A program made the position numbers and the translations under genes. Source: Desulforegulaceae bacterium (GTDB lineage: Bacteria; Desulfobacterota; Desulfobacteria; Desulfobacterales; JACKCP01). Taken from it: a DNA stretch of 64,000 nt. This document shows, piece by piece, positions 18,119 to 20,846 of this stretch; the stretch's first letter is position 1, and every line of letters begins with the position of its first letter. The DNA is taken from positions 1 to 64,000 of the forward strand of contig JAVETN010000007.1 of assembly GCA_034006035.1 (NCBI GenBank), read 5' to 3'. The notes under the pieces are model-generated. The model had not been told where the DNA came from and did not search any database. It saw only the letters and a list, made by a program, of their open reading frames with translations.

Positions 18119-18167
18119 GGTTCTCAAGTTAAAGTCTGGTTACCAGTTTTACTTGGGAACCTTTTTT
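18119..18167 (+). terminator. trp operon terminator built from a GGTTCCCAAG repeat
   Basis: A 15-bp arm GGTTCTCAAGTTAAA (18119-18133) pairs with TTTTACTTGGGAACC (18147-18161), with one mismatch and one G-U pair. The loop itself holds CTGGTTACCAG, a second small palindrome. Six T follow. The arm words GGTTC(C/T)CAAG match the dispersed repeat seen elsewhere in the window. Confidence 0.8.
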
Positions 18168-18185
18168 GCTGATTTAAACTTTTCT

Positions 18186-18390
18186 TTAACCTAAATTGAG
18201 CGATTTTCAAGTTTGCTGCATATACAAGGCAAATTGCATCAGGCTATACTTTTGCTATGCTTGATGCAATTTAACGCCGAAGATGCAGTAAAATTGAAAA
18301 GCCCGCAGGGATTCATATTTTTAAATATAATAAGCTTGATTTATTAAAAATTTTTCAATTTAAAAATATGAAACGCTCAACTTAGGTTTA
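18186..18390. mobile_element. 205-bp nested inverted-repeat element (MITE-like)
   Basis: Terminal inverted repeats of 17 bp, 18186-18202 (TTAACCTAAATTGAGCG) and 18374-18390 (CGCTCAACTTAGGTTTA), match at 15 positions. Inside are two more hairpins. The first, 18204-18300, pairs TTTTCAAGTTTGCTGCAT with ATGCAGTAAAATTGAAAA (16 of 18) around a perfect AAATTGCATCA/TGATGCAATTT stem. The second pairs 18312-18326 with 18358-18372 (core CATATTTTTAAAT, perfect). No coding frame of note. It looks like a non-autonomous, highly structured element; its mobilising enzyme is unknown. Confidence 0.65.
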
Positions 18391-18483
18391 ATTAATAATG
18401 TTAGTTTTGCAAAGCCAGTTGTTTTGTGGCAATTAAAAAATAAATCAGGTATGGTGCCAGCAGAACTTTTAAAGAAAAAAACA

Positions 18484-18560
18484 GATGTCGTTGCGGTTCA
18501 GACTCGTTACCAAACTCCAGCTCACATTCAGGCTCGTTCCCAAGCTCCTGCTCTGTCCAT
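18484..18560. repeat. GTTCCCAAGCTCC-type repeat, second copy
   Basis: Contains CGTTGCGGTTCAGACTCGTT, ACCAAACTCCAGCTC and GGCTCGTTCCCAAGCTCCTG, the same words as at 249-331. A 66-codon frame across it is not credible as a gene because it is made of this repeat. Confidence 0.5.
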
Positions 18561-18658
18561 TATCCAGAACCACCAGAACTTTTTTCTAAAAGAGATGGCA
18601 ACGGTCGGGTGTTTGGTTCTTTAAGCCAGGTAAGGCCTTACCTGGCTTTTCTCATTTT

Positions 18659-20249: not shown

Positions 20250-20273
20250 CCAAAAAACATGGAACGCCATGTT
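20250..20273 (-). terminator. Terminator after relE-like toxin
   Basis: On the minus strand AACATGG and CCATGTT form a 7-bp stem with a 4-nt loop, followed by T6. It overlaps the toxin stop codon. Confidence 0.6.
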
Positions 20274-20568
20274 ATGCTATAATTTCATTTATTGGTAATA
20301 TTTGCTTAGAATGACGTATTGTGAGAATTGATATTTGATCTTTTTCGATGTGATAAATAATATGATAATTACCATAAAGAATTTCTCGAAACTGATTTTT
20401 ATTTATTTCGGGTACAATTCGCCCCATTTTAGGCGACTCTTTTAAGAGAGTAACTTTTGAAAATACTTTCTCAATCCATTTTTCCGCTGCTGAGCGGTTG
20501 TTCATAGCTATATAATCCGCAATTGCAGAGGTTTTATCTATAGCTAATGGTGACCAAATTATTTTCAT
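20272..20568 (-). CDS. RelE/ParE family toxin
   Basis: A 98-residue type II toxin of the RelE/ParE fold. Typical features are the N-terminal IIWSPLAIDKTSAIADYI, a helix pair, KMGRIVPE and the C-terminal strands YHIIYHIEKDQISILTIRHSK. RelE members cut ribosome-bound mRNA, ParE members poison gyrase; the KMGRxVPE pattern and I(L)TIRHS end are shared by both and do not decide the target. Its start overlaps the antitoxin stop by 4 nt. It seems intact. Confidence 0.88.
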   Translation of the reverse strand: MKIIWSPLAIDKTSAIADYIAMNNRSAAEKWIEKVFSKVTLLKESPKMGRIVPEINKNQFREILYGNYHIIYHIEKDQISILTIRHSKQILPINEIIA

Positions 20569-20846
20569 TTTAATATACGTTTTAATGCTATTTTTTTAGC
20601 GTCATCATGCTCTATTCCTGTTCCATTTTCCAACTGCCCTATAGATGTTTGAATATCAGTTAAAAGTTCAATTTTCTCTTGCATAGCTTCATATTCATGA
20701 GCACCTAATAAAACAGCAACACTTTTCCCATGTTGAGTAATTATCACGGGTCTTTTAGTGTTGTGTACTTGTTTTATAAAAGTTGCTATTTTAGTTCTTA
20801 CTTCGGACAGGGGTTTTATATCCTGATCAATTTTTAAGCGTTGCAT
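20565..20846 (-). CDS. Phd/YefM family antitoxin
   Basis: A 93-residue antitoxin. The N-terminal DNA-binding Phd/YefM fold is shown by IKPLSEVRTKIATFIKQV and TKRPVIITQHGKSVAVLLGA, and the charged C-terminal tail would neutralise the toxin. It is the first gene of the pair, with GAGGTAAA before its ATG. An inverted repeat over its -10 box suggests auto-repression, as is usual for this family. Confidence 0.88.
   Translation of the reverse strand: MQRLKIDQDIKPLSEVRTKIATFIKQVHNTKRPVIITQHGKSVAVLLGAHEYEAMQEKIELLTDIQTSIGQLENGTGIEHDDAKKIALKRILK

Follow-up and report, generated by a model that had tools for sequence, protein, structure and literature searches.

Location and structure of the element

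The window, i.e. the whole 64,000-nucleotide stretch of contig JAVETN010000007.1 that was analyzed, contains the end of a trp operon, with TrpB and TrpA confirmed just upstream of a strongly folded, non-coding sequence that starts 112 bp past trpA. The earlier note, made from the sequence alone, had placed a 205-bp structured stretch here (18186-18390), right after the trp operon and free of coding content. Both statements stand, as the listed open reading frames of at least 60 aa leave the element uncovered. The element proper is shorter, 197 bp (18190-18386). The features of the locus, with the evidence for each, are as follows.

18119..18167, + strand: hairpin and T-run after trpA, probably the trp terminator, outside the element (by eye)
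18185..18189, strand not assigned: left copy of the target-site duplication, TTTAA (sequence and duplication statistics of the family)
18190..18202, + strand: left terminal inverted repeat, CCTAAATTGAGCG (sequence, end comparison, alignment)
18204..18300, + strand: arm A, a long imperfect hairpin of 97 nt, kept across the order and the phylum (inverted repeats, fold, model matches, covariation)
18302..18310, + strand: mini hairpin CCCGCAGGG separating arms A and B (sequence, alignment)
18311..18373, + strand: arm B, an A+T-rich hairpin with a variable tip (inverted repeats, fold, alignment)
18374..18386, - strand: right terminal inverted repeat, CCTAAGTTGAGCG as read on the - strand (sequence, end comparison, alignment)
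18387..18391, strand not assigned: right copy of the target-site duplication, TTTAA (sequence and duplication statistics of the family)

The three nested hairpins noticed earlier were recovered by sequence, inverted-repeat and fold analysis: the minimum free energy of the 205-bp stretch is -72.1 kcal/mol, against -35.3 +/- 3.6 kcal/mol in 200 dinucleotide shuffles (z -10.4), none of which was as stable. The proposed 17-bp terminal repeats needed revision. The ends are indeed inverted, but the repeats are 13 bp long with one mismatch (12/13), and the outer letters belong to a perfect 5-bp direct repeat, TTTAA/TTTAA, at 18185-18189 and 18387-18391; a check of the ends for a target-site duplication, suggested in the earlier note, was therefore positive. 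As for the trp terminator that the note put at 18119, a hairpin with a T-run is visible by eye at 18119-18167, but it went unreported by a simple terminator scan, as its loop exceeds the limit of the scan.

The 197-bp element is a miniature inverted-repeat transposable element (MITE). It shows each feature of this class that was tested: a size below 500 bp, no coding capacity, terminal inverted repeats, a target-site duplication, multiple genomic copies and, in related genomes, an autonomous element with the same ends; its mobilization in trans is predicted.

Several other features were seen downstream of the element: a short repetitive, GCTCGTTCCCAAGCTCC-like stretch at 18480-18650 (by eye), a terminator-like hairpin at 18623-18648 (terminator scan), and, at 20272-20846, a toxin-antitoxin pair with RelE/StbE-like and Phd-like members, the RelE match being just below the cut-off.

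Distribution of the family

BLAST of the 205 bp against the genome of origin recovered a near-full copy (81% identity), a second one (73%), a right half of 99 bp (95%) and numerous shorter fragments. A covariance model of the left end and arm A gave four arm-A matches at E<1e-15 and 14 matches at E<=0.1, several of the latter being reverse readings of palindromes already counted. The family looks old in this genome, because its copies have diverged and no intact IS1380 transposase was found there.

Copies were also found in relatives, both in the order and in the phylum. In the first sample, 11 of 58 genomes, the genome of origin included, gave a DNA match. With the covariance model (left repeat and arm A), matches were obtained in 151/389 genomes of the order, representing 61 of 150 genera. 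Nine candidates were scored per genome in this order-wide scan, so the copy counts are lower bounds; deeper scoring of 40 genomes chosen among the positives gave up to 65 matches per genome. A phylum-wide sample gave matches in 23 of 395 genomes, of which 18 lie outside the order. When named genomes were scanned for an exact pattern, 53 stretches came up, each bearing the label Desulfobacterales, Desulfobacteraceae, Deltaproteobacteria or Candidatus Desulfatibia. A phage or virus origin was rejected, with no match in 50,697 phage records and the arm-A pattern absent from IMG/VR.

For the comparisons described below, the full-length alignment (A1) was composed of hand-picked full-length copies, leaving out copies of 254-255 bp from genome G005 and the reduced copy L006; the model R1 was built from 28 of 29 copies (L124 was dropped), and partial arm-A matches were dropped in one compilation step. 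The earlier note had named a single copy, without relatives and without covarying stem positions, as the finding that would speak against its reading; all three points turned out otherwise.

Target-site duplications and movement

An exact 5-bp duplication flanks 66 of the 123 elements for which both ends were found (matching with <=4 mismatches and with 15 bases of flank required), against 2.2 on average and at most 8 for shuffled flanks; two loci of this set, L225 and L230, share flanks and may be one duplicated site. The other 57 two-ended elements have no exact 5-bp duplication. Exact 6-bp duplications do not occur among the 123 elements, and ten exact 4-mers were counted in the whole set, where shuffling gives 2.3 on average. 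The duplication is A+T-rich, most often starting with T and ending with A (consensus about TTWWA).

The genome G220 contains 296 matches to the ends (139+157, with <=1 mismatch), as opposed to four for a backward-pattern control. Eight of its listed model matches, each at a separate site, tie in score, and it has copies flanked by clean duplications. Its end counts and equal-score matches reflect recent activity outside the genome of the window. The same genome has shortened derivatives: elements with arm A only (122 bp) at two sites and elements with arm B only (96-103 bp) at four, each with exact ends and flanked by a 5-bp duplication. Since derivatives lacking one or the other arm bear exact ends and duplications, movement probably does not depend on arms A and B in cis. 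For any single copy, the arm may have been deleted after insertion; movement of the derivative itself is favored by the occurrence of the same 122-bp form at two sites.

Other types of MITE with the same ends were observed, of about 160 bp, 254-358 bp and 416 bp, along with an apparent ends-only element of ~25 bp (L371, L374 and L375 in G220; L063, L071 and L079; L051, L056 and L082 in G005). Genomes of the f41 family (L208, L211) have elements with the ends CCCTAACG/CCCTGACG and, by eye, a target-site duplication that seems to be 4 bp long, not 5 bp. In G027, nine of the ten full-length copies (loci L034, L043, L050, L064, L121, L122, L123, L124 and L128) carry a right-end fragment of varying length 0-5 bp upstream, and in several of them the fragment matches the copy's own right end. 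Outside G027 an upstream right-end fragment was seen in 2/68 copies. A downstream left-end fragment occurs in 0/78. The G027 fragments look like partial tandem dimers and may inform on the mechanism of transposition.

Candidate partner of the IS1380 family

The best-known member of the IS1380 family, ISEcp1, generates 5-bp duplications. A 1918-bp element present twice in genome G048 (copies one base apart) has the same 13-bp ends as the MITE and encodes an IS1380-family transposase (NF033539 above cut-off; Pfam PF13701, DDE_Tnp_1_4, E 2.2e-27). The first copy is flanked by TTATA/TTATA; the second has no duplication (TACAA/TGTTT). A protein search found related transposases, 48-51% identical, in G062, G070, G114 and G094. 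Those of G062, G070 and G114 each lie between two such ends (with three mismatches in G070), and 5-bp duplications were present in G114 (TGATA/TGATA) and G070 (ATAAT/ATAAT); the G062 copy has the same ends and no duplication, and in G094 the left end alone was found, with two mismatches. An IS1380 element of G324 has the duplication TTAAA/TTAAA and the ends CCCGGATATTGCA, which are similar to the CCCGGATTATGCA ends of a MITE in G724, and an IS1380 element of G041, with no duplication, has the ends CCTGAATTTTGCA, the same end as on MITEs of G052.

Thus the MITE and these elements have in common ends beginning with CCT, the same 13-bp ends and the 5-bp duplication, and differ in that the MITE lacks a transposase gene and the IS-type loci lack arm A. 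Because these ends and 5-bp duplications recur on IS1380-family elements elsewhere in the order, an IS1380-family DDE transposase acting in trans is the best explanation, and very probably the correct one, for the movement of the MITE with 13-bp ends. Such a transposase would recognize the 13-bp ends, move the MITE in trans and, by insertion into A+T-rich intergenic DNA, yield the 5-bp target-site duplication. For the window copy this movement probably belongs to the past, as the copies in its genome have diverged and an intact transposase is missing there. The earlier proposal of a mobile non-autonomous element was borne out by the genomic copies, the copies in relatives, the target-site duplications and the matching IS1380-family ends.

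The IS and the MITE with the same ends are rarely found in one genome, and their co-residence is hardly shown; the partnership consequently rests on the ends and the duplication length. G048, G062 and G114 are absent from the 151 arm-A-positive genomes, the end-matching IS being mostly in arm-A-negative genomes. G070 has the IS with such ends and one match, known from arm A alone. No IS1380 transposase was detected in G027, G050 or G220, where the MITE is abundant, which would fit a partner from another transposase family with similar ends. We consider such a partner unlikely, given that several IS1380-family elements of the same order share both the 13-bp ends and the 5-bp duplication. The assemblies are drafts, from which multi-copy IS may be missing.

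A guide-RNA-like arrangement, with arm A belonging to the IS1380 elements, was rejected: the model found no arm A in 26 IS-type loci, where its weak matches (E 0.027-0.9) fell mostly at the terminal repeat. Upstream of the transposase gene, the leaders of several IS1380 elements (L091, L139, L140, L141) contain CCCAACGGGT-like hairpins that by eye resemble the mini hairpin of the MITE, CCCGNAGGG or CCCAACGGG.

Conservation of the arm A fold

In 29 full-length copies from six genomes, 93.6% of the cells in 64 pairs are standard pairs, and two-sided changes occur in 35 of the 64 pairs, compared to 15-20 in slid controls; in arm B, 13/15 pairs have two-sided changes. The covariance analysis proposed in the earlier note therefore gave a positive result, the arm A pairs showing two-sided changes above controls. 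In a set of 97 distinct left halves, with pairwise identities as low as 42%, pairing holds in 93.8% of cells. Two-sided changes were counted in 559 cells, versus no more than 188 after shuffling and at most 141 in slid controls. The deep arm-A set comprised 132 matched places in 98 sources, with 34 further matches (antisense readings) left out. The terminal repeats differ by lineage (CCTAAATTGAGCG, CCTGAATTTTGCA, CCCAAATTATGCA, CCTAAATCCTGCA, CCTAAACGTTGCA, CCCTAACGTTGCA). Judging by the alignments, compensatory changes have preserved the arm A fold throughout the phylum, and the terminal repeats vary from lineage to lineage.

Mismatched states in arm A are not symmetrical between the strands. 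A G-U pair stands at columns 26/101 in 28 of the 29 full-length copies and in 77/98 sequences of the deep set, where the apical pairs are partly out of register in divergent sequences, inflating the A-C count. In the 29 copies, G-T and A-C cells number 119:14 in arm A, 15:18 in the terminal inverted repeats (TIR) and 13:8 in arm B; the respective figures for a set of 78 elements are 319:31, 51:31 and 38:21. When changes were counted by simple parsimony along a FastTree tree of 78 elements (175-215 bp), at pairs with a Watson-Crick majority, the ratio was 71:22 for arm A (p = 3e-7), 29:18 for the TIR and 30:19 for arm B, the G-U excess of arm A over TIR and arm B together having p = 0.03 (Fisher test). 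The alignments and the structure were made with RNA rules, which somewhat favor G-U; the TIR and arm B, being in the same alignment, serve as a control. In unpaired columns, too, the changes lean slightly this way (C>T 84, G>A 66; A>G 117, T>C 69). We take these counts as moderate evidence, short of proof, for selection on arm A in the form of a folded single strand, either RNA or DNA.

The idea of a structured RNA, raised in the earlier note, may hold, in view of the covariation of arm A and its excess of G-U over A-C, but finds no backing in Rfam: no matches were obtained in 12 copy-carrying loci, and those of the window and L158 were far below gathering scores. A known Rfam RNA family was ruled out, there being no match at the gathering score.

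Possible roles of the arms

Two readings of the arms deserve consideration. According to the first, to which we give somewhat less than an even chance, arms A and B are passive and the folded strand has no function, the palindromes being maintained through inheritance from active masters and through template switching at replication, which copies arm onto arm. Template switching can yield paired changes without selection. The arms look dispensable in cis for transposition, and the orientation of the copies to flanking genes is random: in a survey of 75 of 98 loci, those of 1400 bases or longer, with naive open reading frame calls, the left neighbor was in the same orientation in 32 cases and in the opposite in 34, and the right neighbor in 35 and 28, respectively. 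The modest significance of the G-U excess of arm A over the other helices (p = 0.03) and the similar mild bias of unpaired columns also agree with passive arms. Less easily accommodated is the long-lived G-U at columns 26/101 (28/29 and 77/98), which template switching should convert to G-C or A-T. Nor would passive arms readily account for the contrast in the 78-element set between arm A (319 G-T versus 31 A-C) and the TIR and arm B, or for the fact that arm A outlasts the replacement of terminal repeats between lineages.

The second reading sees in arm A a small RNA domain with a function of its own, or else a strand-specific hairpin of single-stranded DNA, for which the MITE serves as vehicle. 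This is a tentative proposal, prompted by the order- to phylum-wide maintenance of the fold, with its 559 two-sided cells, and by the wobble strand asymmetry seen in the tree-counted changes (71:22, versus 29:18 in the TIR and 30:19 in arm B). It has to contend with the lack of an Rfam match, the random orientation to neighbors, the absence of arm A from derivatives with clean duplications, and the lack of a convincing promoter, the best hits of a simple scan having 9 of 12 matches and being few more than in shuffles. No copy among the 75 surveyed lies inside an open reading frame and, taken together with the random orientation, this makes an involvement in host messages less likely. A functional arm A could possibly be regarded as a conserved domain of a phylum-wide MITE family that swaps its terminal repeats to suit different IS1380 transposases.

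That the element is a cis-regulatory or attenuator RNA of the trp operon, as its place 112 bp after trpA might suggest, is highly improbable and was rejected, since copies elsewhere lie in either orientation to their neighbors, outside open reading frames and with duplications, and the window copy follows an apparent terminator and has a target-site duplication of its own. The nearness to the trp operon looks incidental, because copies in other genomes adjoin other genes, in either orientation.

Comparison with known repeats

Descriptions of bacterial MITEs usually come from a single genome and regard them as short-lived IS debris. In the present case one internal hairpin of a MITE could be traced over 151/389 genomes of the order and into other orders, with compensatory changes and with differing terminal repeats, and it is unusual for parasitic fragments of this kind to keep a fold in many related bacteria. 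Should arm A have a function, it would represent an undescribed family of RNAs or DNA hairpins, and the element would be a long-lived parasite defined by its hairpin and not by its ends; if it has no function, the family would offer a measurable case of palindromes maintaining themselves. No paper describing this MITE family was found among open-licence papers judged by title and the start of the abstract, and it may have been published elsewhere.

The palindromes of the REP/RAYT type have neither terminal inverted repeats nor a target-site duplication and are accompanied by a Y1 (RAYT) transposase gene in the genome. A REP-type palindrome was rejected here on account of the true terminal inverted repeats and the 5-bp duplications. 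Geobacter uraniireducens, the host of the MITE Chunjie, presumably belongs to the same broad bacterial group as the host of the window element. Chunjie is 235 bp in full length, with 37 further copies having TIRs and direct repeats, according to a review (PMC10969869). By this description, the two MITEs have in common the size class, TIRs, flanking direct repeats and a mostly intergenic location; Chunjie is described there from one genome, whereas the hairpin of the window MITE occurs in 61/150 genera of its order and in other orders. The "multicopy nucleotide sequences" of Geobacter bemidjiensis, some of them palindromic, are, by their description (PMC2996986), likewise many-copy intergenic repeats. 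Finally, QMITE2 of Coxiella burnetii is about 190 bp long with a strong predicted fold, and a small RNA has been reported from it, according to the same review (PMC10969869); its direct repeats of 7-9 bp and TIRs of 23-29 bp differ from the 5 bp and 13 bp of the window MITE.
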